Origin: Antedon mediterranea
Lineage: Eukaryota; Echinodermata; Crinoidea; Comatulida; Antedonidae
Reading direction: 5' to 3'
Assembly: GCF_964355755.1 (NCBI RefSeq)
Contig: NC_092679.1
Location: 1,800,001 to 1,864,000, forward strand
DNA: 64,000 nt
Part shown: positions 7,716-59,381 of the stretch, in pieces
Numbering within the stretch: position 1 is the stretch's first letter
Layout of the letters: each line of letters starts with the position of its first letter
Program-made: the position numbers and the translations under genes
Notes under the pieces: model-generated
What the model was told of the DNA's origin: nothing
Seen by the model: the letters and a program-made list of their open reading frames with translations, nothing else
The model's database searches: none

Positions 7716-8294
7716 ATGAAGATGCCACCGAGTCGTAAGCAAGACTTCAACTGGAAACGAAGATTATCGTACGATTTAAGCAACAGCTTTCCGAGCGCAA
7801 CACTTACGCAAGCATTTGAGGACGTTAAAATGGAAGATATTGATTTGTCGAGTAGTTGTTTCGGTGCAATTCGAATAGAAAAAGGACCGTTGGATGACGA
7901 CGAACTAAAACCTCTGACATGGTTGCACAGTACCGACCTCCTCAAAGATATTAACTTAGATGATGATGCTGATTACGAAGATGAAGATATCATATCCAAA
8001 GAGAATTGTGATAATGGGCTGATCAATTTTAATAATCAAACAAACAATAATTCAATTGACTCAAACGATCCGATCAAACAAGTGAACAGTAAACCGCCTT
8101 TTTCTTTTAGTTGTTTAATTTTTATGGCAATAGAAGATTCACCGACTAAACGTCTTCCCGTTAAAGATATTTACCAGTGGATTCTAGATCATTTTCCATA
8201 TTTCCATTCTGCGCCAACGGGGTGGAAGAATTCTGTGAGGCATAATCTCTCCCTGAATAAATGCTTTAAGAAAGTTAAAAAAGTAAAAGGCCAG
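7716..8294 (+). CDS. foxn2/3: FoxN2/3 coding exon 1
   Basis: It encodes residues 1-193 and ends in phase 0 at CAG|GTAAGT. The acceptor is TTGCAG at 7700-7705, ten bases before the ATG, so the exon also carries a short 5' UTR. It contains most of the forkhead domain, from [11 protein letters not shown] to [13 protein letters not shown]. Read-through of the donor would add 30 residues and then stop at 8384, losing the wing. Confidence 0.93.
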
Positions 8295-11200
8295 GTAAGT
8301 TATATTAAATTTGTTTGTAGAAGTGACATCAGTTTTTACTGTAAAATCTTTGAGAAGTTATCTCTCTGTTTTAGCACTTTTTGATCATTAGCATAAAGAC
8401 CATATAGTAATAATTAATTAAATATCAAAAAAATTTAAAAGTAAAAAATTAATAATATTGTTTCCAACTGGTTCTCCAAAAGCAGTTTCAGTAGTGATAG
8501 TTGTGGACTTTTTGTGACCTTGATAGAATAATGATTTTAGCAGTTTTCAGGCTTTGTTGGTTTTTGTAACATTTTTCAGTTGTTTTCAATGTATTTGGAT
8601 TTTTGAAGATTAGACTATAACAATGTAAAACAATAAATAAAATACTTTTGCAAAGTTGGAATTTCTTAAGCTCTGTCTACACTATCAAACTTCATATGAC
8701 AAAAACATGATGATGTCATATCACTACCATATTTGGGCACATCACTCTTTTGTCAAAAGCTATCATATTATCAATTGACATGCTCGTTTTTGCATTTGCC
8801 TCTACATGTTATGTTTACCGAGATGTTTAAATGCAGAGTAGCCGTGTTAAACACTCTCAAAACTGTTAACTTCATCTTTCACTGACGCAGATAGCAAATG
8901 AGTCTGTTTCCATGGTTATGCAACAGTTGCCATGGTAATTGATCTTGATATACTTGGTTAGTGATTGGTTGTTAGGTTCAGTGTCATTTTTTGCATCTGT
9001 AAATACATTCTACAGTGTTTTTACATTTAGTTGGGTAGATTAATTGTCTACTTTGGAGTTTACATTTAAATACACAATCTTAATTAACTTTTACTTGTAA
9101 ATTTTAAACAAATTTTTTTATTAGGTACAATTACATAAATGAACTGTACAGCTAAATTATTTTGAACTTTACGCTACATCTTTACAATGTTAAATAAAGA
9201 TAAAAGCCAAAGCAATTGTCAGGTGACTCAGGAGTTTGGGCGTGCTTCAACACAGGATGAATAGATACCATAGAATTATCACATGGGTGGGGTTATTCTG
9301 TTAGGAGAAATTATGCATTAATTTTACTGTACTATTGGGAGTAAGTTACAAAATATAACTCTTTTTTATTGGTTTTTTTGGCATTCTTTTCCGTATTTAT
9401 TTAGCCCTGAACTTATAAGCTTATTGCCGCATGCCCTTCAGCTCTTTACTTGGTAACAAACTTTCAACAATAGTTGCCATGGTAATTTTATCTTTATTAC
9501 GACTTTGATTTGGTGTGATTTCAAAATCAAATATCAAACTTTGTAAAACTTGTTTGCATTTCTTTGTATTTCTAACATAAAAGGGAACTGATTTTACTGA
9601 AGTAAATAGAATTGAAAATTTAAAAAAAAACATAAAAACAAACTAAGGAATGATTACTCACCATTAGATCACTAGATATTATATATATATACAGTCAACT
9701 CTCCCAATACCGGACACCCTTGGGCGGGCATATATTTTCCGGTTTTTCGAAAGTCCGGTTTCCTGAAAACATATTTTTAAAGTCATCACGTTGTCACTGA
9801 AAATGCTTTGAATCACCGGTCGGAATGCTGCTCGGTGCGGTCTAGCGTAGGGAAGGCCTAGGCTATGATTGTGTCAAGCTAGTTTTAATTAAATAAATAC
9901 TGATAGGCCTAGGCCTACTTTATTAATATTAAGCTGATTCAATTTACCTTTTTTAAAAGTTACATTATTTACTGTACCAATAAAACATGTTACAATAGTA
10001 AATTATTGTTTCTCAATGTGTTTTTAACGGCAAAAAGGCCTACGTACGTACGGTGAACATAATTTCGGTCTGTTTATTGTTTTTTTTTCGTGAGCTAGCT
10101 AGCAGCAGCAGCATGGGTGATAAAAATAGCAAAGCGGGGCTTTGATTGATGCGCATGTGCAGAGGTGTCATAATCAAATAAAAACGCCCACACCTGGACC
10201 ACATGTTTTTTAAGCTCCTTTATTTTGACGTAATTTGATAGCAATGATGAAAATTGATTAGGTAAACGAGCCAAGCAATAATGACACAATAATTAATTGG
10301 TAACATTTCAAAGTTTATTAACACTAGTTAAGTCAAGTTCATTCCGTTTACGTTTTGCCATAATGATTTCCAAATTTATAATGATGCACATTTTTAGTGA
10401 AACATTCCTTTTTAAAGTCCTATTGCAATTGTGAATTTAACAATAATTTAAACAAAACAAAGACACAAAGTGGAATGTAAATTGAACTTGAACAATTCAT
10501 ACGCTAAAAAACAGGGAGTTGTTAACAACTCCCTGCTAAAAACAATAGACATTAAGACATAGCGCTTCGATGTGAAAAAGCCCTAGCCCACCGCAGTTCG
10601 ATACGCAACAAAGCAATTGCCGCCTCGTGGGTTAACAATGAACTGACCTGTCAATCACAGTGTAGCGCTCCATGGCAACATTATTTGATCGTACCGCGAA
10701 ACGTCGCGCACTTCATGGTCAGGGTATGGTTAAAAGCTTTTGTATATTGTGAATGTATTGAATCCGAGTCAGCGACGACGATGTTACGTTGTTTTCGTAA
10801 ATATTTGGAGTTTTTTAACTGTCCGTCCGGTTTTCAGACGCTAATTTTCGTGTTTTGTACTTCATAATTTGTCCGGATTCCGGAATTGGGTATTCCGGTT
10901 TTCAAAATAAATTACAGTACATTTAGAATAGGAACAAATTGGGCCCTCCAAAAAAGTCCGGTTTTTCGTGAATTCCGGTTTTGGGAGAGTCCGGTATTGG
11001 GAGAGTTGACTGTATATCGTTTCAAAAATTAATTAAATAATTTTCAGTGTATCACCGGGCGGTTTGGAATTTATTTCTATGCCTGTTGTGTTTATATATA
11101 TATAAAAGTATCTCTCGAGATCCCGCTTAGTGAATAAATATACTGAATTATAGATGAGGGCGTATCAATTTGATCTCTGGTGCGCGTGCGTACAACTGAG

Positions 11201-14200
11201 GACTAGTTGTGTTCCAACCGTACCACGCCGAGAATGTTAAAGGGTCGTTATCCGATCGAGTTAAAGAACAATACCATGAAAGCCCCAGTGGTCTAATGGT
11301 TAGGGCAACTGCATATCAAGCAGGCGGTCCGAGTTCGAGTCTCGGTTGGGGCGACTTTTTCTCATTCTCACAGATTTCCTCATCTTTATCGTTTCAAATT
11401 AATTAATTAAATTTCAGTATATCACCGGGCGGTTTAGAATTATTGTTCATTGCCTGATGTGTTTATATAAACAAAAGTATCTCTTCGGAGATCCCGCCTC
11501 GTGAATAAAAATACTGAAAGATGAGGGCGTATCAATTTGATCTCTGGTGCGCGTGCGTACAACTGAGGACTAGTTGTGTTCCAACCGTACCACGCCGAGA
11601 ATGTTAAAGGGTCGCTATCCAATCGAGTTAAAGAACAATACCATGAAAACCCCAGTGGTCTAATGGTTAGGACATCTGCATATCAAGCAGGCGGTCCGAG
11701 TTCGAGTCTCGGTTGGGGCGACTTTTTCTCATTCTCACAGATTTCCTCATCTTTATCGTTTCAAATTAATTAATTAAATTTCAGTATATCACCGGGCGGT
11801 TTAGAATTAATGTTCATTGCCTGATGTGTTTATATATATATATATATATTTTTTTTTTTTTCTTCAGTCTTTCAAATAAATTCATTCTTGTAGCATTTTG
11901 GTTCAGAACTTTAACTAACATATTGACCTTAGACATGCTTTTCATAATCCACAGTCTTAATCACCTTTTGATCTAATTAATCCCACTGTTGTTAGGATCA
12001 ATTTATCATTAATACCTTTTGTTAAAGTTTTTGTCAAATCCTGTTCTGATTTTGACACTGAAGGTCTTTATCTACTTCATGATTGTTTCTGTCTCCTCTT
12101 ATGCTTTATTGCCATGGAAACCATATGCTGAATACCATGGCAACGTAGTTAACCAGCTTAATACTATATCTGTCTTGAATTGAAGAAACAATTGCAGCAA
12201 AAAATGTACAAATTTGTATTCAGGATGGGATCTTACAGACATTGAATTATTGGTAAACAAGTCTGTAATCATCTAGTCATTCATTGTTAATTATTGGACA
12301 CTATTGTTAGTTCTAGTAAATGTTTATATAATGAGACAAGGGTGTTAATATATACTGTTTGTAAGGAGTTTCTTTCCTTTGGATTTGGCATAAACATCTT
12401 TAGTAACATTTTCAGACGTGTAATTCATGACAAATCTCTGCAAATCTACAAAAAAATAAACAACCCGTAGCAAACCTTATGGAAACAACATAAAAGTGAT
12501 ATGTAATGCGAGATAAATTCGGGGGAAGGGGTTTATGAATTTTTTTTTTTAAACTTTACAATTCTTTAGCAGATAAAATTGTTTTTGTTTTACATACTCT
12601 TACTGTAGGAGTGTTTTTTTAGTATACTGTAGGTTTAACTTATTTATAAACTTGGATGAAACAAACATACAACCTGAATGGGTACTGTACCCACATATAT
12701 TGACATAGGTGCCTTTTTAAATAAAATCAAAGAACTTATAACACAAGAATCTCCTGTTCGTCCAAAGCGCGTAACAATTTCGAAAGGCATTGTGGGATAG
12801 AATAGAGCTATGGGTGGCGCCATTGTGAGCCATGGAGTAGGGCGCCCGCATCAAATTAGAACGTCAAAATCATAGAGGGGATCTGCTAATACTCTAGGGG
12901 GTAGAGTAATTGACTTCCTAGTTTGGAGGGGGCGCTGCTCCATGCTGTGAAATGGCGTCGCCCAGTTTGACCTTTTAACCCTGTACTTCCGATACTGTGT
13001 TTTGAATGCAAATTGAAGAACAGGAGATTCTTGTGTTATAAGTTCTTTGATAAAATATAACAGACTGTACATGTGTAACTAAGGGCCTGTTCGCAGGGGT
13101 TGAAAATACCAGCTTATTCCCGATTTCCGTTCGCGTGATCCAATTAACTTTTGCCTCAGGCTACAAAAAATTCGAGGTAAAATGTTCACCAAATTTGCAG
13201 GTTATTTCAGCGATAATCCAATTATACTCGGCCTTCGAGGATAATAAATCTCCGATAGAGGCAATGTGTCAAATTTTGACAAACGTTCGCTGCCTAGGCC
13301 CGTCATTTCTCCTACGAAGCTCTTCCATACACGCTTCGAGAGCGATCGTCAGCTGGTGCTGTCCTTGTTGGTGTAGACCGCTTTAGTAGGCCTAGCTGGT
13401 CGGGGAGCCGCTGGTCGGTGGTGTTTCCGTCGTGTAACATTGGGCTCAAATTCTTCGTCAATGAGTAAAATAATGGTCGTCAGGAGAAGGCATATTTCGG
13501 CAGGATTATCGGCGTTAAGAGGCATAAGGTTTGTCGCAAGGATAAGCAGTGTAAAAGGTAGCAAGTAATTGTTATTGTAAAGAAAGATCGCGAGTAAAAA
13601 ATATACAACAAGAAACTAGCGTGCGAAAATGGGGTCGTAGGTTGTAAAGACAACTGACGTAATTTCCGGTTTGTGATTCGTCGATTAAGCATTTAAGCGG
13701 TTAAATATTTCAAGTACGAACAACGCTCAATTTATAACCCGAGGCATGGGTGAAATTAAGCGCTTATTTTAACCACCGTACGAACACGACCTTACATTCC
13801 CTCATTCTATTGCTTTGTGCTGCATGGTATGTGGTCTTAAGAACTCCCATCATGAGGATGTTAATTATATTAGTGTACATATGATCATCACTGTAAAACA
13901 AATTTGACCAATTTAACCACACTTCTCAAAATGTACAGTGATTATTTACATTATAGGTACAGTACAAGAGATTAATAATTAAATAGAATTCTACTTTTAC
14001 TAGTGACAATGTGTTCAATGGTTTTGAACCGTTTTTTTTTCAATACCAGTAAATAAATCAAATTTCTTCTGTTCATTAATTCACTTTCATATACAACCAC
14101 GCAAAATCTAACATTCAGCTTACAGTACCTGAAATACCTAAACAAATTTTAATTTAAAAATACAGTAATTGTACAAAATCAGAATACCAAACCACAAGCA

Positions 14201-32757: not shown

Positions 32758-33053
32758 CTAGAAATACCTTGTTACTGTTACAACATTATCAAATAATCTA
32801 CCATAATAGAAATTTCCATCGGTCGCATCCAGTGAATAAAACAGCTTGTGATTTTTTACTTTAATTGGCAGCGTTGATTTTCCAGCATGCCGCGTATAAT
32901 TGCAGGACACTTCCGTAATTGGCACGGTGAAGGTGTAACCCTGTGCGAAAATACCGTACGTTTCAAAGGTAAGATGCTGTCCACCTTGGCGTAAGACAAG
33001 AGCACTGATGTTCTTCCGGGAATACAGAAAAGAAAGTACGAAAATTGTTCCAC
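32758..33053 (-). CDS. TMEM223: TMEM223 coding exon 2
   Basis: It follows TTTTCAG and encodes GTIFVLSFLYSRKNISALVL through NVVTVTRYF and a TAG stop. Frame and family alignment fix the phase. Confidence 0.9.
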
Positions 33054-33907
33054 CTGAAAATAAGCAAAGACAGTAGTATGTGAAAGCATTGTTGTTACAG
33101 TACTACCAAATATGGTAGTGATATGACATCATGTCCATATATGGGCACATAACATTTTTGTGTTTGTTTGATCATTGTAGAATAGGCTTTATAATACTGT
33201 ATATAGTTGACTATATTATAGTCAACTCTGCCAATTGGGCTGACCAAATATAATATAATGGTAAAAATAAATTTGAAAAAAGAAAAAGTCTGGTATTTAG
33301 AGAGTTTCTGGTTTTTAGAGTCTAGTATTGGTTGAGTTGACTGTAACACCATTGTTCTGGAATCAAAACTTGATATAAATGAATGACTTCTTTATAACAA
33401 TTTTATGTACGAACCTGCTGCCATTGACAAGGCAGTGATCCCATATCTCCATCTCGAAGCAGACATGTTCAGCTTGATCCCTTCCCACGTCGTCCATTTT
33501 CGTAACTCTTTTGGAGTGCCATCTGGACCGTACTTTATTTGCTGTTTTATGTACGAGTCTTTCATAGAAGTGAAAGCCACATGTGTCAAGTAACCCCAGA
33601 ACACCAATTGACTAACAGCAAATAAACTAACAAACTGGAACAGTCTTTTTTGATTACCACGGTAAAGTAAAACAGGCTTTGTAATTTCAGCTCCTAAGAC
33701 TGTACTACTACTAGTACTACAGTTTCTAAATAAAAGTACTCTATTCATTATTGGCACAGCAGATCTAGTCTTACAGGCTTGATAGTATGCAAATGTCCAT
33801 CTCGAATATTGTGGTGTCACTTTTGTAATCAGTTTGCAACTGTGCAGTTGAAACGTGGGGAGGGTCTGCAATAATTTCTGGGTGCATATTTTTTGGAAAA
33901 GCTGCAT
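32758..33907 (-). CDS. TMEM223: Transmembrane protein 223 (mitochondrial), 2 coding exons
   Basis: The joined exons (33907-33415 and 33053-32758, minus strand) give 262 aa. TMEM223 is an inner mitochondrial membrane protein linked in human cells to cytochrome c oxidase subunit 1 biogenesis. The sequence shows a basic, acid-poor N-terminus of about 75 residues that fits a targeting presequence, then VLLYRGNQKRLFQFVSLF with a first membrane segment (about 90-112, containing SQLVFWGYL). The motif SRWRYGI leads into a second membrane segment (about 154-176). The C-terminal matrix-type domain includes LRQGGQHLTFETYG, VPITEVSC, LPIKVK and RLFDNVV, matching human TMEM223. It is longer than the human protein (about 200 aa), mostly at the N-terminus. 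The first ATG after an upstream non-ATG stretch is chosen. It faces away from PPP1R21 and converges with FoxN2/3. Confidence 0.9.
33101..33158. mobile_element. Family A MITE fragment, copy 7
   Basis: Only the interior of family A is left: one ATATGGTAGTGATATG unit and CATGTCCATATATGGGC. Both ends are lost. It lies in the single TMEM223 intron. Confidence 0.6.
33219..33342. mobile_element. Short pogo-like element related to the 9.7-kb element
   Basis: The ends AGTCAACTCTGCCAAT and ATTGGTTGAGTTGACTG are diverged forms of the inverted repeat at 9692-11012, and TA follows on the right. The left end forms a local palindrome with GTTGACTATA at 33206-33215, as if two element ends once abutted. It lies in the TMEM223 intron. 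Confidence 0.55.
33415..33907 (-). CDS. TMEM223: TMEM223 coding exon 1
   Basis: It starts with ATG at 33907-33905 (MQLFQKICTQ) and ends at GCAGCAG|GTTCGT in phase 1, within the second membrane segment. It holds the presequence and the first membrane segment. Confidence 0.88.
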
Positions 33908-34673
33908 GATGATGGGTAACAATTTTCGTTTTGTTCATTTATTATTATTTGCAGATGAGTGAGAGATCTGCTACAATTGGTCTTCACATAGGTAACATAC
34001 AAATACAATAGAGTACATCTTTGTAACCTGAAAAATAGAATTAATAAATAATATGAATATTAATGATTGTAATTGTAGGTATGTATGGAAAAATAAAGTA
34101 AAAAATTTGTTTACAACTATGCACACCTATCCTACTACTGTTTCAGAAAACCATATAATAGATTGTCTATGTAGCCTGGTTTAAAATATGCATTACTTAG
34201 AGCAACCGTGTAGAATATAGGTAGGCCTAGGTTGTGAGGCCTAGACCATGTATAGTGTATATTGTGTGGGGGCGATGATGGGAAGAAAAGGGACTGACTG
34301 ACTGACTGTTTAATACTCTAGCCTAGTCTAGGCCTAGCCACTTTTAAATATTGATAACATTAAAAAAAACAGACTGTGTCTTGTGAAAATTATATAAAAA
34401 TTGATATTTCATTATTTAATACAAGTTAACAAACCACAAATTATTAATTTAGGCCTAAATATATCTGCTTTTTAAAAACAAAAATACTCGCGATCGTCGT
34501 TTGGCGGGCGCGGCCATGTGTGTCTGACCTATTTTGTAACGGGTCAGTGAACATAACCTTTGTTCCTCTCTCCCCTTTTTTTGAGCTGGCGAGACATGTT
34601 ATGATTTCATATTAGCGGCGGAAGAAACGCCCTAATTTCACGTGAAAAGGACACTTTTTTAAATTGTAACATC
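33908..34673. promoter_or_regulatory. Divergent promoter region of TMEM223 and PPP1R21
   Basis: The two start codons are 766 bp apart on opposite strands. The segment 34485-34650 is the most GC-rich part, with TGGCGGGCGCGGCCATGTG (YY1-like) and GCGGCGGAAG (ETS/GABP-like), as in housekeeping bidirectional promoters. No TATA box is placed convincingly. AGGCCTA motifs are dense here and in PPP1R21 intron 1. Use as a shared promoter is inferred from the layout. Confidence 0.55.
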
Positions 34674-34724
34674 ATGTCTGATATACAAACAAAATATCAA
34701 AAATTAGCTCAAGAGTTTGCAAAG
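34674..34724 (+). CDS. PPP1R21: PPP1R21 exon 1
   Basis: It encodes MSDIQTKYQKLAQEFAK and ends at AAAG|GTAAAT in phase 0. The start aligns with the human start (KYQKLAQE). Confidence 0.92.
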
Positions 34725-37700
34725 GTAAATTTTGATAAATAATGTCTATTAAATGACATATTCCTCTAACTAGTGACAGCAGAGAGGCCTCTCTAGGCCT
34801 ACATCCGATCGTGTGGCCTCGCATGGCTTAGCCGGCCGGATGGGTTGTTGCTGGCCTAGCCTAGGCCTAGCAGATTGAACCAGATGTGCACATGAATGGG
34901 TTATACAATACACAAAGTGGATGCCTAACTTTTCTATATATTAACTAGGCCTACCCTAGTAGTAGTACTAGTAATTGAAGGCCTATTACTATTTTAGGCT
35001 ATTTAGCTCGGCCCGGGATATAGATTAAAATTGTCCAATTTAATTTTTTAAGATGTTATTTTCTTTTTTTAGCTGCGTGCTCAAAATCAGGTTTTAAAGA
35101 AAGCAGTGATTGAGGAGCAAGGCAAACAGACACAGTTTAAGGTGAAACATTGGACATATGATTAGGCACTTGTCAATTGTATGACCCACTATACGACCCC
35201 CGGGAGAGGTGCGTCATGGATGCGTCATTTACAAATAATTACTGACGCAGGGGTGCGTCAAAAAACCTAGATGGTACGTCACATCAATGAACAAGGTGTG
35301 TCAATGTCCGTCACTTTACCACCCACCATATCATAAACAACATGGTCACAGTGCGTCAAAATGGGTGCGTCATGGTCACCTAAAGGTAAGTCACCTTTTG
35401 CGTCATGGTATTCAAAAGTATGACGCACATCGGACAAATGACGCACCTCTCCTGGGGGTTGTATAGTGGGTCATACAATTGACAAGTGCATTATTATTAT
35501 ATAGAACAAACTTCGACCGTTTTGTCTTTTTTGTCATTTTTGTCATCGCCTGGAAAATGTATACCGTCCGTATTAATTCCAGTTTCCAGGCTTGGCCTAC
35601 AGTACCATTTAATAACCTGACAAAAAAAATATTTTAAATTAAATGCATTGTGCAAGGATAGAATCTTTGCACATCCTTACAATGCAAATGCATTGATTTC
35701 TATATTGAAGTTTCTCTGTTTTGTTTCATTTCATTTATTTGTTTTTCTTTACAGGATGCCATTAAAGAACGTGATCAAAAGGTTCGTAAATTTGAGCAAG
35801 AGATTGACAGCCTCACTTTCCGAAACCAACAACTGACAAAGCGTGTCAACATTTTGCAAGATGATCTGGAAGTAGCAGAGTCTAGAGCAAAGAAGGGCAA
35901 GGTATGCAAATTAAAACAATCTAACATCAGGATGATGAGCTTCAGAGATTAAAGGGTTTATCTGTGGCTGCAAGACTGTCAGTTCCATGACTGTATGCTG
36001 CAGAAAATATGTACATTGTACATTACTATTGGTATATCTGTCGCAGCCAGATAAAGGACTGTTACGATTTTCTATCTTGGCAATGCGAGCTTAGTGTCCA
36101 GTTGTTAGATTGTCTACCAGCAGGTAGGCTTCCAAAGCTGAAAAATTATCCTGAAGTTGCTGAGATTACCTCTGGTAGTATCGGCTCCCTCTGTAAACAG
36201 TTTTACCTACGCTTGAGTTTCTGATATTGCTGCGAGTCTGTTAAGAATCTGTGAGTTTGTCCTGGAATTCTTCTGCTTTTTTACTAGCGAGGCCAATGAA
36301 AAGCGATTGAATTCGCTGTTGGAGTTCTTCGAGCCTAGCATAGCATGTGTTATGTATGTTTGTTGTTTGTATTTGTAAAATCTGGAATAAATTGATTTGA
36401 ATTATGATTTAATAATTCTCTTCTATTTTCAGCATGATTTTGTAAGTACTAAATCTCTAAAAGATAAATAAAAATAATTTTTATTTGTTCTCTAGAACAA
36501 AGTAACTACTGAGCCTGTTGCCCGTCCAAAATTAGAACAAAATGTAATTGGAGAAGAGCTACGCAATAAAATACAGGAAAACGAAAGGCTGCATATACAG
36601 GTACGCTGACATGTTTTTTTATTCTATTCAATTTAAAATTTGATGTCAGATTTTTTTAAGAAATAGCTGTTTTGAAGAGAGACAAGGATAGGATAATTTA
36701 AAAATAACACTAGCAATTCTTGATGACCTCTGTGTAACATGTGATGTACCCATATATGGACATGGTGATGTCATATCACTACCATATTTAGGCATATCAC
36801 TACCATATTTAAGCACATCACACTTTTTTTTGTCAAACTTGTTTGATAGTGTAGACAGAGCTTCAGGAGGAGTAAAGAAATATGGGTTTGTGCATAATTT
36901 TCATTTCAAAACATTTATATTATATATTATATTTATAGCTTAATGTGATTATAAAATTTGTTTTAATAGTTTAATCAGTCATCGGCTGAACACCAGCAGA
37001 CTATGTTATCACTCCAAGATCGGTTGTACGCCTTAGAAAATGAAAATAGTCAACATCAGAGGATCCTAGAAACAACTCAAAAACAAAATAAAGACATGAT
37101 CGAGAGACTTCAACAAGATAAAGCTAGGCTGGAAGTGAAGATACGTAACATGGAAAAAGAGGTAAAATATTTACAATAATTATTTTATATTTAATGATGT
37201 AATAGCTCTGTAATTTGGTAGGTTGCCTTGTGATCCTATTCTTCATTAAATTCAGTTTTTGCATAGTAATTTCCATATGCCAAATACATTGCTGTCATAC
37301 AGAGAGACCCGGGTTCAGTTTCCGGCACCTCCCAGTCTACTCAGCTGTAAATGAGTACCTGTTAAAAATGCTATGGAGAATAAGGCGGCGTGGAAAAGAA
37401 CTGGCCACCCTATTAATACTGCCGAGGCTAGTAAAATGAGCTCCTAACAGCTCGTTACCCTACGTTCAGAAATAAATCAAAATCATACTTTAAAACTCTG
37501 AAATTCCTTCTCTTTAACTGAACAGTTTGGGAAGGCTTGAGTTTTTGCAGAGTTGACTGTTTGACTTAACAGCCACCGTTTGTACTCGTAGATGATTTTA
37601 GAAAATGCAATTTCTCATTTTGTAATACAGTAATACAAATACTACTCTGGTTTTTTTTTTGTATTAGTCGGGAGATGCAGTAATGAAAGCTGAAAAAAGT

Positions 37701-40700
37701 GAACAAGAATTAAGAATACTAGAAGAAGATCTAGGCAGTAAACTAGAGGTTGCTAGGAAACTAATCACAGATAAACTACCATTTAATGATACAGGTAACT
37801 ACACAATTATTGATTATTAAGGATAAAATGTGGGATTATGGATAGGATAAAGAGTTTGTTTACAGGAGGGCTTAAAAGATAGCCGATAAGATAACGATGT
37901 AATTTATAATTTTATATTGATTTAATGATTGATTGATTGGTCACTTTATTTCTAAATAAAAATTCCATATATACAACAAACAATACAAAACAGAAAATCT
38001 CACTAAAATAGGATTTTCTGCTACTTAGTGAAAGGATTTGAAGATCATAACAGATAGTTCGTAGTGCACCTAACAAGATCATTTTCACTATTCAAAACTC
38101 CTATTCTAAAACCATAGACTATACTAAGACTATAATAGACTATTTTTTGTAAATGGTTATTATTCATAATGAGACATTTACAAGTGTTGACCCGCAGGTC
38201 ACACACCAGGGTACTAATTCTGTAGGCTTGTGTAAATGATATATTCAGATATGGTTAAAGGTCAAACACAAATACAAAAAGATATCTAGCATTAAACCCT
38301 AAATATTATGTATTTATGATTTCCGGTTGTAAAGATAATAATAAAAGCGTGATTTTCGAAGATCTCATGTAAATCGCACAACTATTTTTTGCATAATTTA
38401 ATGGAAGTCTTTAGTAGTGAATATTTGGTAAAAATCTGTTAAACAGTGTTTTTTACCCGAAACTCAAAATTGTTATAAAAGAAATATAGAATTGACATGA
38501 CCCGATTTTCTCATTTTACTGTAAAGGTTAAATTTGTAAATATTTTTTTGTAGAACTTCGCAAATTCAATGCCTTGAATGTCCCTACTCACGATCGAAAA
38601 CAACAGGTATGTTTGGATTTTTTACATTATTAAATTACATATGGTAGTGATAACATCATCATGTCCATATATGGTCACATCACATTTTTTTTGTCACATA
38701 AAGTTTGATATTGTAGACAGAGCTTTAGATACCAAATGATACTCACACAATTTGATACAATTTTGAAATGAAAGAAGAGGGCATATTCCCATACTTTGAT
38801 TTCATAAACTTTTAATTTTAGAAATTGAAAAACATTAACCATTATATCAGTAGTAATGTTTCAACTTCAAACTATGATAAAACAACATTGATTTTTTCAT
38901 TTTCAGCAAAGAACTAAAGAGTTGGTTGGAAAGGCTAAAGTGCTAATGAGTGAGATGTGCTCAGCGTTGTCTAACTTTCACACTTACACAGAGCAGAGAA
39001 CCAAGATATTTCCAGTTGATGCATCTGCTGGTAGCCTAAGTGTCGTGAACGCCAAAGTAAGTTTGTTGTAAACCGTGTGTCTATATTAAGTGCTGAAGCC
39101 AAAGCCAAATTCACAATAATGTTAACAATATACATAATTGTTATCATTGCAAAGGTGTTTTTTCCAACTCTGATGTAAATTTGATCGAAATTTTTTCCCT
39201 AGTATTCACAATGTGCTTTATTCATTAAAAATATAAATAATATTAAAGCTCTGTCTACACTATCAAAATGTATGTGATAAAAAAAAAATGTAATGTGCCC
39301 ATATATGGGCATGATGATGTCATACCACTATCATATGTGGGCATATCACTACCATATTTGGGCATATCACTACCATATGTGGGCATATCACTACCATATT
39401 TGTGCATATCACTACCATATTTGGGCATATCACTACCATATTTGGGCACATCACACTTTTGTGGAACTAGACAGAGCATAAGATTTTAGTTTGCATTCAT
39501 TCACATAATTTTCTTGTTCAATTTCATTTGCATAGTTTTGTACTTATCTTAGTTTTGTACTTATCTTAGTTTTGTAATTATCTTAGTTTTGTACTTATCT
39601 TAGTTTTGTACTTATCTTAGTTTTGTACTTATCTGCATGAGAACGCTGCATATCTGAGGTCAATTGAAAAAAGCTTCAACAACTTTTATGATGATATTAC
39701 TGAAGATGCTCTTACAACTCTAGTAAGTCTTGTTTTTATTTGATTTATACCTTTCTGTATTGTATATTGATATTTTTGTTAATGCACCTTGAGCACTCTT
39801 GAGTGCTATGTGGGCTATATAAATCTATATTATTATTATTAAATTATTATGTTTTTCACATTTTGCAACACATTTTTGATTAAAAATGTTTATTTATTTT
39901 GTAGGAAACAGCTACAGGTCTACAAGACTTTTCTAGTAAATTTAGCAAATATGTGTCGTACTTAAATAAGCTACTTCCATATCAGTTGTTAAGGTTAGTG
40001 TATTATAAATACTTCATGTGTGATGTGGCTGAATATGGTAGTGATATGCCCAAATGTGGTAGTGATATGCCCAAATATGGTAGCGATACAACATTATCAT
40101 GTCCATATATGGGCACATCACATTTTTTTGTCACGTAAAGTTTGATAATGTAGACGTAGCTTTAAATTAGAAATATTCAAAACTTTATTGATTGTTTTCA
40201 GTTTGGAAGAAGAGTGTGCATTATCATCGTGTTCACAAACGCTAGAATCAAGAAACATGGAATTGCACAGTGCCCTCAAGAAGCTCACATCAGCATTTAC
40301 AAAGTTAGACTCTTATGTACAGTTGTTAGCAATGACCAGTAAGAAATCAGGTGATCTACCACAGGCCAATCACAGGGAGTTCTTCAATAAAATGATATCG
40401 AGTGTCACCTATCTGTCCAGTATAGTTAAAGGTAAGTTATTATTATTTTTTATTAATCTTCATTTTTCATGTTTTTGGGAGACAATATATCTTTAAAGCT
40501 TTCATATGTACATTAAAGAGTCGCATCTCTACATTTTAAACCTACCATGTCAAGCGTACTTTGGTACAGTATTTCAAAATTGGATGGAGTCTGAGAAAGT
40601 AGATAGTAGATGTCAGAAAATTACGGATGTGTTGAAAGAAATTATAACAGTATTTTATGGTATCATGGGTGGGTGATGTTTTAAAATTAGGTTGGGTAGC

Positions 40701-43700
40701 CCACCTTAAAATACATTTTAGGTTGAGTGAAATATACTGAATGTGGGCGTCTCCCTTCCTACTCACACAGTTACATCCCAAGATACATCCTATCTAAAGC
40801 TCTGTCTACACTATCAAACTTTATGTGAAAAAAAATGTGATGTGCCTATATATGGACATGATGTCATATCACTACCACATCACACTTTTTTTGTCAAACT
40901 AGTTTGATAGAGTAGACAGAGCTTAAGTATATATAATTTTCGTCACAGATGTATCAAAGAGCTACAATTTCAAAGTTTCTCTTGAGCACCAGCTACCAAC
41001 TGTTACTCAGAAGCTAAAGACTACTGATGAATGTGTTGTCTCATCTCTTATCTCATTGGTTACTTGTACAGGAAAGGTAAGATCATGTGATGTCTCATCT
41101 CTTATCTCATTGGTTACTTGTACAGGAAAGGTAAGATCATGTGATGTCTCATCTCTTATCTCATTGGTTACTTGTACAGGAAAGGTAAGATCATGTGATG
41201 TCTCATCTCTTATCTCATTGGTTACTTGTACAGGAAAGGTAAGATCATGTGATGTCTCATCTCTTATCTCATTGGTTACTTGTACAGGAAAGGTAAGATC
41301 ATATGATGTCTCATCTCTTATCTCATTGGTTACTTGTACAGGAAAGGTAAGATCATGTGATGTCTCATCTTTTATCTCATTGGTTACTTGTACAGGAAAG
41401 GTAAGATCATGTGTTGTCTCATCTCTTATCTCATTGGTTACTTGTACAGGAAAGGTAAGATCATGTGATGTCTCATCTCTTATCTCATTGGTTACTTGTA
41501 CAGGAAAGGTAAGATCATGTGATGTCTCATCTCTTATCTCATTGGTTACTTGTACAGGAAAGGTAAGATCATGTGTTGTCTCATCTCTTATCTCATTGGT
41601 TACTTGTACAGGAAAGGTAAGATCATGTGATGTCTCATCTCTTATCTCATTGGTTACTTGTACAGGAAAGGTAAGATCATGTGATGTCTCATCTCTTATC
41701 TCATTGGTTACTTGTACAGGAAAGGTAAGATCATGTGATGTCTCATCTCTTATCTCATTGGTTACTTGTACAGGAAAGGTAAGATCATGTGATGTTTTTT
41801 TGCTACATTTATATGCTACCGTTGTGTCTGCACCTTGTTGGTGGCGCTGCTCTCTGGCAACAAGTCAGCTTTTTTTAGATTGTTTTCGCATCCTTTCAAG
41901 AATTTAATAACACATATCCAACAAACATTATTGAGCCTTTAACTCCTCTATGCTGTTAGTTTCTGTGTCTACCGCATTTTTTTGCTTTATTTGTTCATTT
42001 CAATATTTTACAAGTGTCCATCCAGCCGAAGCTGATCTTTATAATACAATTTGACAAGACAATAACATACAATAATTTAAATAAATAGAATTTATAAAAA
42101 TTAACAAATTAAAATAATGAAAAAAGTTACGGCATTAAGCAGTATGGTTTGTGATTACTGTACACTTTTATTCAAGTTCATTTCAATTTTTTTGTTGCTA
42201 GTTATCAAATTTTATGAAGTCAAATGTGGACATGTTTAGCGCACCAACTAGTTACCGAACCAGAGGACACAGTTTTATACAAGATGATGATCAACAGGGG
42301 AGAATGACATCACCGACGGTATCGACGTTAAGAGAGAAATCAGTCAATTATATGGCTATGCTTAATAAGGTAACACTTTGCAACATTTTCGTAGTGTTAC
42401 AAATTGCATAGATTATAATATTTGAATTGCTCACATACCTGGTTAAAACAATGTATTAAGGAAATTATGACAACAAAAATATTAAGTAAAAAAATATCTT
42501 AATATTAAATTCTGAAAGGTTTCATATTATATTTATTGTATATACCTTAATAAAACCTTGAAAAGAAGCCCATGAGCTGCTTCTTTTTTTAGGACTCTTG
42601 GGTGGCCTTCTTTTTGGATTACCTTTTCAAACCACAGGGAGGGACTTTTTTTTAGATGGGCTTCTTTTTAGATTACTTTTCCAAACCACAGAGGGTGGGT
42701 GTTCTTTACAAGATGGATTTCTTTTTCTTCTTTTCAAGATTTTACAGTATATTTTATAATAATTTTCAGCCCTCTCCGGACTCTGTTCCGTACACACAAG
42801 CATTGAACAACCGTAGGGTGCTGGTCAGCTCAACAGAGAGCAAGGAAGGCCTAGCTCAACAACTAGCTTCCAACTCTGATAAAATCAGCAGATTGGAACA
42901 AGATAGAGAACATTGGTTACTAGAAGCACAGTTACTACAAATCAAGTATGATAAAGAAGCAATGGTAAGGTCAAAGTTGAAACATTATAATAGAGACATG
43001 TACCCATTTCACATTGCCTAATGATTGGTTTCCAGTAGCGATGCAATGCAGGGCTTTAATGCAATGTAAATGATTTAACCAATCACAAGCAATGAATTAT
43101 TCGAACAGTGGCTTGTCATTGGTCAACTTGCTTGCATTGTGTGTACGTCCTTGTTTTTAAACCATGATAACGCAAGAAGCTTATTATTTTATATTAATGT
43201 AATATTTTATTTAATTATTATTATTATTGATATTCTCATATATATTAAACCATTTTCCTGTAACTGCAATGGGAAATTGCAATACATATATTGTCGTATT
43301 GGTGGTCATCTGGATGTTGAATAGAGTGAGAAAGTACACTCCAATGGCCCACATGTACAATGAAATTAACCTAGGTTGTTGAAAATCAAAAGCTCCCTAT
43401 CATGATATCATCATCTTTTTTAGAAAGTGAATCGGCTACAATCACAGTTACAAAGTCACATATCTGGTGTACATGGACCTGACTTGATGAGACAGGTGTC
43501 CAATGACTCCCAAGAAGGTAGCAAAGCTGACCACAAGCCAACTGATCCTTCTGTAAGTAATACAGGATATTTCTTTTTTCCACACCGAAACAGAAAATAC
43601 ATGATTCCCCAATTACGGGAGGCGCAGTAAGTGGTGCTGTATTGGCTGTCAAACTGAGACAGGATTTGAACCTTTAAGGGTCTTTTACACCTGTTGGCAT

Positions 43701-45546
43701 GGTTCCGAACATAGATGTTTCGTTTTCACATGGTAACATGCATATCGATTGATGCATAGCCGCATGGAGCATCGTAAAAACGAAACATTGGCATTCGATT
43801 TGATTTACCAGCGCCGGACCGGAACTGTGCTAGAACAGGTGTGATAGACCCTTAATGCTTTCATTTGTGCATCGGTATTATCTTGTGTTGAGTAAGCTAA
43901 AGTAACCTCATGTTTTCTTTAAGGTCTTCTCATTAAATGTTGGCTCGGCTACATTGGTTTCCCTGTCTAATTATGAATTAATTTAAAAGATTTTAACTTT
44001 AAAAGTCCTCTACTTAAAAAAATGTCTAAACTTATAACATTTCGAGGAAGACCGAGAACCACCCTACCAATAACTCTCAGCAACGACCTACTCACCCTTT
44101 ATAAGCATAACACAAACATCAAGTATCCCGGACAATTGAAAACCAAGAAAGACATCAAACAACTTAACACTTTGACTGCCAAACACGAAGATCTTCGTTT
44201 TTGGAAACACAACGCTTGACTGCCAAACACGAAGATCTTCGTTTTTCGCGTTTTTTTACGAAATCCGGTAGATAGGTTAATTATTGGTATATACTATAAA
44301 TATGGACACTAAATTCGGTCTGGACCGTGAATTTTTTACCTTTTGAAAGTAACTAATCTGGTTACGAACGATTGTCAAAATGGTACCTGTCGAAATAACA
44401 TACACCGCGCATCACAGTAGCGCGTACAGCGATGGTTTGGCGCATTGTGTTTCGGTCGCGCGCTAGCTATGCCGCCGAAGCATTACAAAGGTTTATGTGG
44501 ATTGGCATGTTTGTTTGTTATCTGAATAAAAAATAAAGGATGAATTTTCAATAAGAAGTCTTTAATTTTATTATTGTATGTATACCCTAATTGTTTTGGT
44601 GTTTCACTGTAAGTGACCGAGTTTCACGCAACAAACTTGTTTAGAAATGGTATGAATATTATCATCAGTTTACTAGCTAGGCTAGTAGTACTAGGCTATA
44701 GCCTAGGCCTAGTTGTAAAACGGTTCCGGACCAACTTTAGGCCTAGTTAACTAGGCCTGGTGTCTTTACTATATGGATTTTGGCGAAACATTGATGTAAG
44801 ATTTATGATTTATAAAATGTAATACATTTTTCGATAGTGATAACTTGTTTTTTAGGCCTACCGGTGCCGTGTAAGTAACTTTTCCGTTGTTTGTTGATCT
44901 CACCGGGCGATATTTTCATATTGTGATGTCTTGCACAAAATCGCGAATATCTCGACTTTCTTGCGCGAAACTACGAAAAACTCAAAAAGTGGGTTACTTT
45001 CATTTTACTATTACGATTTACATATTGCGATTTGAAAATCGTTCTTGGTACCATTGTAAAGCTAAAATCTATATGATTATTTCAGTCTAAATTACATGTA
45101 AATCAGATCACATACATAGTTTCAATCAGCTTTAATAAAAACATCAAATTGGGCTATAAACGCTGGCGGTGGCAGTTTCAAACTGGAAAAACCTCTGGCA
45201 GTCAAAGTGTTAAAGAACTAGCCAATGAAAGATCAGACTGGAAAAAACTGGTAAAAGAGATTTACGTAGCAGCTCAAGCGGAAATGTCGGCAGACTTTTC
45301 AGCGGAAAGGCAGTAATCATCATCATCAAGTCCTCTACTTCAGTTTGTTTTCGTTAGAAGGCAATGATAAATTATGTTTTCTTCTTAACTCAGCTTGGCT
45401 CGTTGTCGAAACAACCAATGGACTTTGGGGAGAGCGAAGAGACATCTCGCGAAAACCTCATCAAAAAACACTACACAAGTAAAGTGTCCATTATGACTAA
45501 CCACAGGCAGATGGTAGATAGCAAGTCAGTTAGCTTCCACTCTGAG
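34674..45546 (+). CDS. PPP1R21: Protein phosphatase 1 regulatory subunit 21 (KLRAQ/TTKRSYEDQ family), partial at the C-terminus, 17 exons
   Basis: Exons are 34674-34724, 35073-35141, 35755-35901, 36433-36441, 36496-36600, 36970-37161, 37668-37794, 38554-38606, 38907-39056, 39621-39722, 39905-39993, 40202-40431, 40949-41076, 42202-42369, 42770-42964, 43424-43552 and 45394-45546. They total 699 codons, with no in-frame stop and all phases matching. Human PPP1R21 (780 aa) is an endosomal coiled-coil protein. Conserved landmarks in order: KYQKLAQE, DSLTFRN, ENERLHIQ, KLPFNDT, NFHTYTEQR, YLHENAAYLR, LPYQL then SLEEEC, STESKEGLAQQ, EHWLLEAQL, ENLIKKHYTSKV and DSKSVSFHSE. Predicted to be mostly coiled coil. 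The last 80 or so residues, including the TTKRSYEDQ motif of the family, are not found before 64000. Two splice sites lie in tandem repeats (see findings). Six family A MITEs sit in its introns. Confidence 0.94.
35073..35141 (+). CDS. PPP1R21: PPP1R21 exon 2
   Basis: It follows TTTTTTTAG and precedes GTGAAA, phase 0. It encodes LRAQNQVLKKAVIEEQGKQ and TQFK, matching LRAQNQVLKK of human. Confidence 0.92.
35165..35490. mobile_element. Harbinger-like hairpin MITE rich in TGCGTCA
   Basis: The ends are long inverted repeats of about 50 bp starting GGCACTTGTCAATTGTATG, with TTA on both sides (35162-35164, 35491-35493). The interior repeats TGCGTCA/TGACGCA and near forms many times. It is in PPP1R21 intron 2 and encodes nothing. 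Confidence 0.75.
35755..35901 (+). CDS. PPP1R21: PPP1R21 exon 3
   Basis: It follows TTTACAG and precedes GTATGC, phase 0. It encodes a coiled-coil stretch with IDSLTFRNQQLTKRVNILQ and ends ESRAKKGK. Confidence 0.93.
36009..36400 (+). mobile_element. Retroelement-like 3' segment in PPP1R21 intron 3
   Basis: The end of this block (GTAAAATCTGGAATAAATTG, then ATTTGAATT) is closely similar to 49655-49700 (TGTAAATCTGGAATAATATG), which suggests two copies of one retroelement tail. An open frame at 36009-36224 has no recognisable domain. Confidence 0.4.
36433..36441 (+). CDS. PPP1R21: PPP1R21 exon 4, possible 9-nt micro-exon
   Basis: CATGATTTT sits between TTTTCAG and GTAAGT, and would add His-Asp-Phe in frame. 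Both splice sites are strong, and inclusion or skipping keeps the frame. The position falls in the variable segment between two coiled-coil blocks. Predicted from sequence only. Confidence 0.5.
36496..36600 (+). CDS. PPP1R21: PPP1R21 exon 5
   Basis: It follows TTCTCTAG and precedes GTACGC, phase 0. It ends with EELRNKIQENERLHIQ, matching the conserved KKIEENERLHIQ of human. Confidence 0.93.
36727..36862. mobile_element. TAA-flanked MITE (family A), copy 8
   Basis: The left end is eroded (CTCTGTGTAACATG). Two units in the CACTACCATATTTAGG orientation and the right end TTTGATAGTGTAGACAGAGC are clear. It lies in PPP1R21 intron 5. Confidence 0.7.
36970..37161 (+). CDS. PPP1R21: PPP1R21 exon 6
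   Basis: It follows TTTAATAG and precedes GTAAAA, phase 0. It is a 64-residue coiled coil with RLQQDKARLEVKIRNMEKE, matching KLQNDKAKLEVKSQTLEKE of human. Confidence 0.92.
37285..37490 (+). mobile_element. tRNA-derived SINE
   Basis: A B-box-like GGGTTCAGTTTCC (near 37311) is followed by a body with TCAGCTGTAAATGAGTACC, GGCGGCGTGGAAAAGAACTG and CTGCCGAGG, then an A-rich end with AAATAAATCAAAATCAT. The left head is diverged, so the start is approximate. It lies in PPP1R21 intron 6. Confidence 0.6.
37668..37794 (+). CDS. PPP1R21: PPP1R21 exon 7
   Basis: It follows GTATTAG and ends at ACAG|GTAACT in phase 1. It ends ITDKLPFNDT, matching INEKVPFNDT of human. Confidence 0.93.
37795..38553 (+). 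other. PPP1R21: PPP1R21 intron 7
   Basis: The interval 37921-38240 starts with GATTGATTGATTGG and an AT-rich stretch that could be the reverse of a retroelement tail, but I cannot confirm it. Nothing else is recognised. Confidence 0.5.
38554..38606 (+). CDS. PPP1R21: PPP1R21 exon 8
   Basis: It follows TTTTGTAG, precedes GTATGT, and runs from phase 1 to phase 0. It encodes ELRKFNALNVPTHDRKQQ, matching YNALNVPLHNRRHQ of human. Confidence 0.92.
38637..38724. mobile_element. Family A MITE, copy 9 (left end missing)
   Basis: One ATGGTAGTGATAA unit, CATGTCCATATATGG and the right end TTTGATATTGTAGACAGAGC are kept. It lies in PPP1R21 intron 8. Confidence 0.7.
38907..39056 (+). CDS. PPP1R21: PPP1R21 exon 9
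   Basis: It follows TTTTCAG and precedes GTAAGT, phase 0. It encodes ALSNFHTYTEQRTKIFPVDA, matching ALLNFHTYTEQRIQIFPVDS of human. Confidence 0.95.
39247..39478. mobile_element. TAA-flanked MITE (family A), copy 10, expanded interior
   Basis: TAA flanks and both ends are present. The interior has six to seven 21-bp units in the CATATCACTACCATATTTGG orientation, one of the longest arrays in the window. The unit leaves frames open on both strands (for example the heptad GISLPYL), which are not genes. It lies in PPP1R21 intron 9, just before the acceptor array. Confidence 0.88.
39536..39634 (+). repeat. PPP1R21: 17-bp tandem repeat spanning the exon 10 acceptor
   Basis: Five copies of TTTTGTACTTATCTTAG (the third with GTAATT) are followed by a sixth that continues into exon 10 as TTTTGTACTTATCTGCATG. 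AGs lie at 39535, 39552, 39569, 39586, 39603 and 39620. Only the last AG gives the conserved reading frame. Using the one three units upstream keeps the frame but meets a TAG at 39618-39620; the rest shift frame. Confidence 0.92.
39621..39722 (+). CDS. PPP1R21: PPP1R21 exon 10
   Basis: It starts after the last of six tandem AGs and ends at CTA|GTAAGT, phase 0. It encodes FCTYLHENAAYLRSIEKSFN then DDITEDALTTL, matching FSQYLHENASYVRPLE and SITEDTVTVLE of human, which fixes the acceptor. Confidence 0.93.
39777..39848 (+). mobile_element. SINE 3' end fragment
   Basis: GCACCTTGAGCACTCTTGAG then GGGCTATATAAATC and an ATT repeat match the 3' end type of tRNA-derived SINEs. A related end (GCGCTATATAAGAATGAATG) closes the SINE at 60.27 kb. 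Confidence 0.5.
39905..39993 (+). CDS. PPP1R21: PPP1R21 exon 11
   Basis: It follows TTTGTAG and ends at TTAAG|GTTAGT in phase 2. It encodes ETATGLQDFSSKFSKYVSYL and NKLLPYQL, matching LTSYICFLRKILPYQLKSLE of human. Confidence 0.93.
40013..40161. mobile_element. Family A MITE, copy 11
   Basis: The left terminal repeat is lost. Three 21-bp units in the ATATGGTAGTGATATG orientation, CATGTCCATATATGGGC and the right end TTTGATAATGTAGACGTAGC are seen. It fills most of PPP1R21 intron 11. Confidence 0.75.
40202..40431 (+). CDS. PPP1R21: PPP1R21 exon 12
   Basis: It follows GTTTTCAG, ends at AAAG|GTAAGT, and runs from phase 2 to phase 1. It encodes SLEEECALSSCSQTLESRNM to VTYLSSIVK, matching SLEEECESSLCTSALRARNL of human. 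Confidence 0.94.
40798..40923. mobile_element. TAA-flanked MITE (family A), copy 12
   Basis: Both terminal repeats and both TAA flanks are present. The interior is reduced to about one unit (CATATCACTACCACATCAC). It lies in PPP1R21 intron 12, just before exon 13. Confidence 0.85.
40949..41076 (+). CDS. PPP1R21: PPP1R21 exon 13 (first of 14 possible donors)
   Basis: It follows CGTCACAG. It encodes DVSKSYNFKVSLEHQLPTVT to SSLISLVTCTGK and ends at GGAAAG|GTAAGA in phase 0. The end matches TNGAGK of human, so the first donor is the ancestral one. The last 46 bases of the exon are the first unit of the following 54-bp array. Confidence 0.92.
41031..41794 (+). repeat. PPP1R21: 54-bp minisatellite spanning a 5' splice site, 14 copies
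   Basis: The exon 13 end and donor are repeated with an exact 54-bp period; donors GGAAAG|GTAAGATC recur from 41076 to 41778. Units differ by very few bases (for example GATGTC or GTTGTC). Since 54 is a multiple of three and no stop occurs, the frame stays open through all copies and adds VRSCDVSSLISLVTCTGK per unit. After the last copy the frame runs on to a stop at 41905-41907. Each unit also has an acceptor-like TTGTACAG just before GAAAG. Confidence 0.95.
41795..42201 (+). other. PPP1R21: Remainder of PPP1R21 intron 13
   Basis: AT-rich sequence with an ordinary TTGCTAG acceptor at the end. No repeat or transposon is recognised. Confidence 0.6.
42202..42369 (+). CDS. PPP1R21: PPP1R21 exon 14
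   Basis: It follows TTGCTAG and precedes GTAACA, phase 0. It encodes LSNFMKSNVDMFSAPTSYRT to SVNYMAMLNK, matching IASFFSNNLDYF and AAAYMKSL of human. Confidence 0.9.
42541..42715 (+). repeat. Short direct repeat in PPP1R21 intron 14
   Basis: Two diverged copies of CTTCTTTTTGGATTACC followed by AAACCACAG(G)GAGGG occur within about 60 bp, in an otherwise T-rich intron. Confidence 0.5.
42770..42964 (+). CDS. PPP1R21: PPP1R21 exon 15
   Basis: It follows ATTTTCAG and precedes GTAAGG, phase 0. It encodes SVPYTQALNNRRVLVSSTES, KEGLAQQLASNSDKISRLEQ and EHWLLEAQL, nearly the same as human. Confidence 0.95.
43424..43552 (+). CDS. PPP1R21: PPP1R21 exon 16
   Basis: It follows TTTTTTAG and precedes GTAAGT, phase 0. 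It encodes KVNRLQSQLQSHISGVHGPD to KPTDPS, a less conserved linker. It is supported by frame and splice sites. Confidence 0.85.
43678..43851. mobile_element. Small TTAA-flanked MITE
   Basis: The ends GGGTCTTTTACACCTGTT and AACAGGTGTGATAGACCC are inverted copies with TTAA on each side (43674-43677, 43852-43855). It is 174 bp and lies in PPP1R21 intron 16. Confidence 0.65.
44016..45327 (+). mobile_element. 5'-truncated LINE remnant with target duplication, split by a DNA element
   Basis: The target duplication AAGTCCTCTACTT occurs at 44003-44015 and 45328-45340. Between them is the C-terminal part of a LINE protein (GRPRTTLPITLSNDL, then ERSDWKKLVKEIYVAAQAE), a stop codon and an ATC-repeat tail. 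The coding part is interrupted by a TTAA-flanked element, and the frame resumes exactly after it. It lies in PPP1R21 intron 16. Confidence 0.8.
44168..45209. mobile_element. Non-autonomous piggyBac-like element, 1.04 kb
   Basis: The ends CACTTTGACTGCCA and TGGCAGTCAAAGTG are inverted repeats flanked by TTAA (44164-44167, 45210-45213). A second copy of the left end, with CGAAGATCTTCG, follows about 46 bp inside. No transposase frame is present. It sits inside the LINE remnant, so it is the younger insertion. Confidence 0.85.
45394..45546 (+). CDS. PPP1R21: PPP1R21 exon 17 (last exon found)
   Basis: It follows TTAACTCAG and precedes GTAAGT, phase 0. It encodes ENLIKKHYTSKVSIMTNHRQ to DSKSVSFHSE, matching EDLIKNHYMARI and ADSKSVHFYAE of human. 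A further exon of about 85 codons is expected. Confidence 0.93.
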
Positions 45547-59160: not shown

Positions 59161-59381
59161 AGCTTATGTCTACACTATCAAACTATTTTGACAAAAAATG
59201 TGTGATGTGCCGAAATATGGTAGTGATGTGCCCAAATATGGTAGTGATATGCCCAAATATGGTAGTGATGTGCCCAAATATGGTAGTGATGTGCCCAAAT
59301 ATGGTAGTTATATGTCATCATTTCAATATATGGGCACATCACATTTTTTGTCACGTAAGGTTTGATAGTGTAGATAGAGCT
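59161..59381. mobile_element. TAA-flanked MITE (family A), copy 16, expanded interior
   Basis: Both ends are present, with TAA on the right. The interior has about six 21-bp units in the CCCAAATATGGTAGTGATAT orientation. With copy 10 it is the longest array of the family here. Confidence 0.88.

Follow-up and report, generated by a model that had tools for sequence, protein, structure and literature searches.

In amphioxus, tandem repeats that lie across exon-intron boundaries have been named 'mirages' (as cited in PMC3087553). Here we describe an array of this kind in the PPP1R21 gene of the crinoid Antedon mediterranea, where a 54-bp unit that holds the end of exon 13 and the start of intron 13, with the 5' splice site (donor) between them, occurs 14 times in tandem. 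The window, that is, the whole stretch of DNA analysed, is 64,000 nt long (NCBI RefSeq assembly GCF_964355755.1, contig NC_092679.1, positions 1,800,001 to 1,864,000 of the forward strand), and positions given below are those of the window. An earlier, sequence-only reading had pointed to the array.

The amphioxus mirages are found in Adh3, in the globins BflGb6 and BflGb9 and in TnC, with imperfect ones in PGBD5; the globin units, at about 150-160 bp, are longer than those of Adh3, which measure 10-72 bp. For the Adh3 and globin mirages, reverse-transcription polymerase chain reaction suggests that regular splicing is not interfered with (PMC3087553), and no aberrant mRNAs are said to arise from the mirages of Adh and TnC (PMC3902484). 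The Antedon array is like them in that its unit spans an exon-intron boundary and splice signals are present in all 14 units, and Antedon PPP1R21 likewise has one array at a 5' junction and one at a 3' junction. It differs in its 14 copies, every one of which has a complete, strong donor and keeps the frame, whereas BflGb6 had 3 or 6 units, and in its host genome, which is 32% G+C. Judged by its sequence, the array is a mirage by anatomy; the instability and the undisturbed splicing of that class are not part of the assignment.

A second comparable system is the variable number tandem repeat (VNTR) in intron 18 of human ABCA7, which starts at the real exon 18 donor and ranges between alleles from about 12 to about 427 units (PMC5954066). 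In both genes the first unit supplies the exon's own donor, which in Antedon is at 41076/41077. The ABCA7 unit is 25 bp long and described as intronic, and its retention shifts the frame, whereas the Antedon unit includes 46 nt of exon and keeps the frame. Of two frameshifting ABCA7 isoforms, the one spliced from the donor of the next unit appears to be the rarer, at 2 +/- 1% (on our reading of 'respectively' in PMC5954066). In the C. elegans allele unc-73(az100), the original is used more than a duplicated, partly non-canonical donor pair that lies 18 nt downstream (PMC8865678). Repeats at exon-intron boundaries also change gene structure in human segmental duplications, with 27 intron modifications kept after inspection (PMC2812944); these internal repeats are likewise minisatellites at exon-intron boundaries, but they belong to recent paralogues, whereas PPP1R21 is apparently single-copy. 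By analogy, the precedents would mostly favour regular splicing, namely the amphioxus mirages and the engineered worm duplicate, in which the upstream sites prevail; ABCA7 is mixed. For PPP1R21 itself, one narrow literature search with splicing and tandem repeats turned up no such array in titles and abstract beginnings.

The array and the parts of the Antedon gene around it are arranged as follows.

34674..45546, plus strand: PPP1R21 exons 1-17, assigned by hand and by similarity
40949..41076, plus strand: exon 13, ending at the donor of unit 1
41031..41786, plus strand: the 54-bp unit, 14 tandem copies, the unit being the last 46 nt of exon 13 plus the first 8 nt of intron 13 (GTAAGATC)
41077..42201, plus strand: intron 13 when spliced from the first donor
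41787..41795, plus strand: a 9-bp partial copy, ATGTGATGT, with 8 of 9 bases equal to the exonic start of unit 1 (ATGTGTTGT)
42202..42369, plus strand: exon 14 (LSNFMKSNVDMF...)

Tandem Repeats Finder places the array at 41031-41795, with a period of 54, 14.2 copies, 98% matches and 0% indels. Read unit by unit, it consists of 14 full copies plus 9 bp, as the sequence-only reading had counted it (14 copies at exactly 54 bp), and the same donor is indeed present in every copy: GGAAAG/GTAAGATC is found in 14 of 14 units (the slash marks the splice position), with AG/GT at each join (GAAAG/GTAAG). The donor word GGAAAGGTAAGATC occurs at 14 plus-strand places in the window, every one within the array. 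Since the array begins 46 nt inside exon 13 it is not wholly intronic, and the exonic part of the unit is backed both by the PF10212 profile and by the human protein chain of PDB entry 7nd2. The units share a mean pairwise identity of 98.8% and vary at three positions only: units 1, 8 and 11 have T at position 6, unit 6 has A at position 3, and unit 7 has T at position 17. Each of these variants alters an amino acid. Thus, although the 0 to 13 additional peptide copies foreseen from the sequence would be added in frame, the copies are not all identical; unit 1, for example, encodes V (human I) at a place where units 2-7 and five more encode D. When the unit was searched for in the 354-Mb, 18-contig assembly, the best candidates scored gave 7 matches, all within the array.

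The host gene had been named PPP1R21 from the sequence, and the assignment holds. In the assembled protein, the KLRAQ, helical and C-terminal domain profiles PF10205, PF10212 and PF21636 all score above their cut-offs, and the human PPP1R21 chain 7nd2_A matches colinearly over query residues 2-696 with an E-value of 4e-174. A profile search of the genome with PF10212 scored 10 candidates and gave 5 matches, none of them outside this locus, so the gene is apparently single-copy and intact; we read the locus as the PPP1R21 orthologue. The proposed family alignment of TGK with GAGK at the exon 13/14 junction is likewise borne out by the 7nd2 chain, in which ...NGAGK is joined to IASFFSNNLDYF (NGAGK-IASFF); in Antedon ...CTGK is joined to LSNFMKSNVDMF (CTGK-LSNFM). 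Splicing from the first donor therefore yields the family protein with no insert. The first donor had also been called the ancestral one, and it does yield the uninterrupted family protein; at the DNA level, however, no donor is more ancestral than another, because tandem duplication makes all 14 descend from one. The exon numbering includes a putative exon 4, a possible 9-nt microexon, CATGATTTT, at 36433-36441 between exons 3 and 5, which encodes HDF in frame and has acceptor and donor signals; the Pfam scan used the protein without it.

The elements ATGTGTTGT in the exon and ATGTGATGT in the intron match at 8 of 9 bases, and near-repeats of this quality at 54-bp spacing are found at 57 of 57,721 places outside arrays. 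They would have stood 54 bp apart in the ancestor, and we consider this near-identical 9-bp direct repeat the probable founder of the first tandem duplication. If the duplication joined to the left of the mismatch, the units would carry A at position 6, as 11 of the 14 do, with T kept in unit 1. Unequal exchange or slippage could then have expanded the array to 14 units. The T that appears again in units 8 and 11 fits what exchange within the array predicts, and is best read as a hint that variants moved between the exonic unit 1 and the intronic copies.

All 14 donors can be used without loss of frame, as the sequence-only reading stated. When exon 13 with 0 to 13 extra units is joined to exon 14, all 14 joins translate in frame and without a stop, while exon 13 grows from 128 to 830 nt and intron 13 shrinks from 1125 to 423 nt; read straight on, the exon 13 frame stays open across the entire array, to a stop that ends at 41907. 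Among the 17 donors assigned in the gene, AAG/GTAAGA ranks second with a leave-one-out matrix built from the gene, fourth with a general donor matrix and, by the energy of the U1 duplex, third. With the gene matrix, 7 plus-strand GT sites outside the array reach its score. The near context of the 14 donors is much alike from rung to rung.

Such openness, however, is not special to the array. Of the gene's 15 other exon ends (the 9-nt exon excluded), 12 would also stay open if repeated together with 8 intron nt, and so would 376 of 645 placements of a 54-bp segment tested on the gene. One period in three is divisible by three by chance, and openness is common; the in-frame state is thus unremarkable and gives no evidence of a protein role.

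A second array in the same gene bears on this question. It straddles the acceptor of exon 10:

39533..39634, plus strand: a 17-bp unit, 6 copies, with the exon start placed at 39621 by protein similarity

The family sequence KFCTYLHENAAY (human KFSQYLHENASY) results only from the last acceptor, at 39621; any of the five acceptors upstream of it would, if used, cause a frameshift or a stop. Thus, if the assignment is right, junction arrays persist in this gene without protection of the frame, even where use of the additional sites would do harm.

Three outcomes had been offered for the exon 13 array: a protein of variable length, a device for donor competition, and neutral repeat growth hidden in an intron. 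The last fits best, and we think it probable that the array is a neutral minisatellite, with the first donor mainly used. In this account, PPP1R21 would be a gene normal in other respects, in which a young minisatellite grew over the boundary between exon 13 and intron 13. The first donor would be the likeliest for most transcripts, with the array spliced out in the intron and the protein left as it was; leakage to later donors, if any, would be minor and would insert some multiple of 18 residues in frame.

Several points weigh against this account. The 14 donors are alike in sequence and in near context, and the sequence therefore gives no reason for the first to win; moreover, the 14th gives the shortest intron (423 versus 1125 nt). 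In mammalian test genes, duplicated equal donors can favour the intron-proximal one. In DOK7, the stronger, intron-proximal site is the one used (PMC5585400). Splicing of ABCA7 is disturbed, with exon 19 skipping that rises with VNTR length and alternative transcripts that exceed the canonical one in 90% of BA10 samples (PMC5954066). Finally, three of the five upstream acceptors in the exon 10 array score equal to the assigned one, so score does not account for the choice of site there, which protein similarity leads us to assume.

Of the alternatives, a length-variable protein fares best, though we regard it as unlikely. It would require substantial use of donors 2-14, with 18 to 234 residues inserted after residue 481, inside the six-helix bundle domain. 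The stop-free joins, the frame that is open through the array and the rank of the donor among the strongest of the 17 are all as this explanation would have them, but openness of this kind is what chance commonly gives at the gene's exon ends, and the insertion point falls within PF10212 (residues 255-504). The three variant sites, all amino-acid changing, are too few to judge selection. AlphaFold2, run on the single sequence, predicts for the repeat a confident all-beta repeat fold with a mean pLDDT (predicted local distance difference test) of 90.1. For the antisense frame, however, the prediction is likewise confident and an all-beta repeat fold (pLDDT 87.4 for the best model, with two of five near 58), and AlphaFold2 reportedly folds random perfect repeats into confident beta-solenoids, as it did with 32 of 78 in one test (PMC11795689). 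Given the antisense control, the predicted fold was set aside as evidence for a protein. A match of the repeat frame to PDXDC1-like_cen2 in Pfam was also disregarded, with 27.9 bits against a cut-off of 29 and no single stretch passing.

The second alternative, that the 13 extra donors act as competitors or decoys which bind U1 and adjust how fast or how efficiently intron 13 is spliced, depending on copy number, is kept as a rival, and we consider it improbable. Strong donors stand in series here, and in ABCA7 expression is lower, and skipping of exon 19 more frequent, with longer VNTR alleles (PMC5954066). Local folding of the array covers its donors more than it does most others, with accessibilities of 0.03-0.11 for the 14 donors versus 0.0-0.55 for 16 others. 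Yet the RNA fold of a single unit equals the shuffle mean (z 0.03); three units fold mildly better (z -2.03, with 9 of 200 shuffles as good), and the exon with the whole array has a z of -1.50, with 1 of 20 shuffles as good. RNA structure as a means of hiding donors was therefore judged a weak candidate, one unit being no better than shuffles and longer pieces only mildly more stable.

It is very improbable that the array is an assembly artefact, with a true copy number other than 14 or a single copy. Near-perfect repeats can be mis-assembled, and one amphioxus mirage appears aberrantly assembled in the draft genome according to the authors (PMC3087553). In Antedon, however, the variant units lie at separate positions, and the assembly has just 18 contigs for its 354 Mb; the count of 14 is that of the assembled sequence alone.

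The units had also been thought removable piecemeal, because of an acceptor-like string just before GAAAG. The string, TTGTACAG, is present in 14 of 14 units, but its CAG scores -1.94 against a range of 1.3 to 16.2 for the gene's 16 assigned acceptors (leave-one-out, with a rough matrix built from these 16 sites of one gene), and 1106 of 3088 AG sites outside the array, about a third, score as well. The AG of GAAAG/GT scores -7.67. By score, the unit thus holds no usable 3' splice site, since none of the 16 assigned acceptors scores as low as either candidate. If splicing ran from donor 1 to the CAG and on to exon 14, it would leave a scar of 5 nt (GAAAG), with a frameshift and a stop. Removal of units as mini-introns was accordingly rejected, both for the acceptor score and for the scar.

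Intron birth in progress, with tandem AGGT units becoming GT-AG introns removed singly as in the model of Rogers (potato RdRp; repeated AGGT units spliced as introns in fission yeast, PMC4974935), shares the AGGT of the duplicated segment and the AG/GT at every join with the Antedon array but differs in the lack of a good acceptor by score in the unit, and with the 5-nt scar and stop just described and a one-unit intron of only 49 or 54 nt it is extremely unlikely.

The surroundings of the array are rich in minisatellites, with 134 arrays that make up 8.9% of 264 kb (the window plus the next 200 kb). Of the 46 with a period of at least 15, at least 2.5 copies and at least 85% match, ten or more of which belong to one 98-bp family, the 54-bp array alone carries a donor scoring at least 9. 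Thus, donor arrays are not shown to be common in the region; this count covered donor-bearing arrays. Within PPP1R21, 3 of 33 junctions lie inside arrays, the third being the donor of exon 7, spanned by a weak two-copy 24-bp repeat (37767-37814, 80% match) that may be due to chance. Random placement of the gene's seven arrays hits at least three junctions in about 31% of trials, and in 9% once arrays that extend into exons by over 50 bp are left out. The idea that PPP1R21 junctions carry arrays in general excess was accordingly rejected, their number being no higher than chance gives.

Further features were seen in and near the window. A 21-bp satellite, CATATCACTACCATATTTGGG or its complement, accounts for about nine Tandem Repeats Finder rows of the window (including 39321-39454 and 59202-59308) and, by eye, often lies near inverted AAAGCTCTGTCTACACTATCAAA-like ends (e.g. 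40795-40925), which suggests that it is part of a mobile element with a variable 21-bp array. At 11015-11840 there is a 367-bp tandem repeat of 2.2 copies, which contains two tRNA-like sequences for Asp (anticodon atc). Downstream of the window, PPP1R21 has two more matches to C-terminal exons, at G000:C10:1871198-1871311 and 1884375-1884509. A gene of the TMEM70/TMEM186/TMEM223 family (PF06979) is present in two pieces at 32758-33934 on the minus strand. Upstream of PPP1R21 is a forkhead gene (PF00250) at 7500-8384, which we take to be FOXN2/3-like. FOXN2 and PPP1R21 adjoin in human too, and the forkhead-PPP1R21 neighbourhood may be old microsynteny.

At the least, the exon 13 array is one more splice-junction minisatellite, here with a donor array and an acceptor array paired in one conserved, apparently single-copy gene. 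Its value is experimental. The 14 identical donors have nearly the same local context and differ mainly in position, and all of their products are in frame; RNA from this gene would therefore test exon definition against intron definition without a bias from decay, since nonsense-mediated decay would not hide the donor choices. It is quite improbable, in our estimate, that many of the 14 in-frame donors in this ladder are used, in which case this conserved subunit of the FERRY complex would be made in up to 14 lengths, with allele length setting the mix. If that were true, the isoform spectrum would be a direct readout of the position rule in donor choice.
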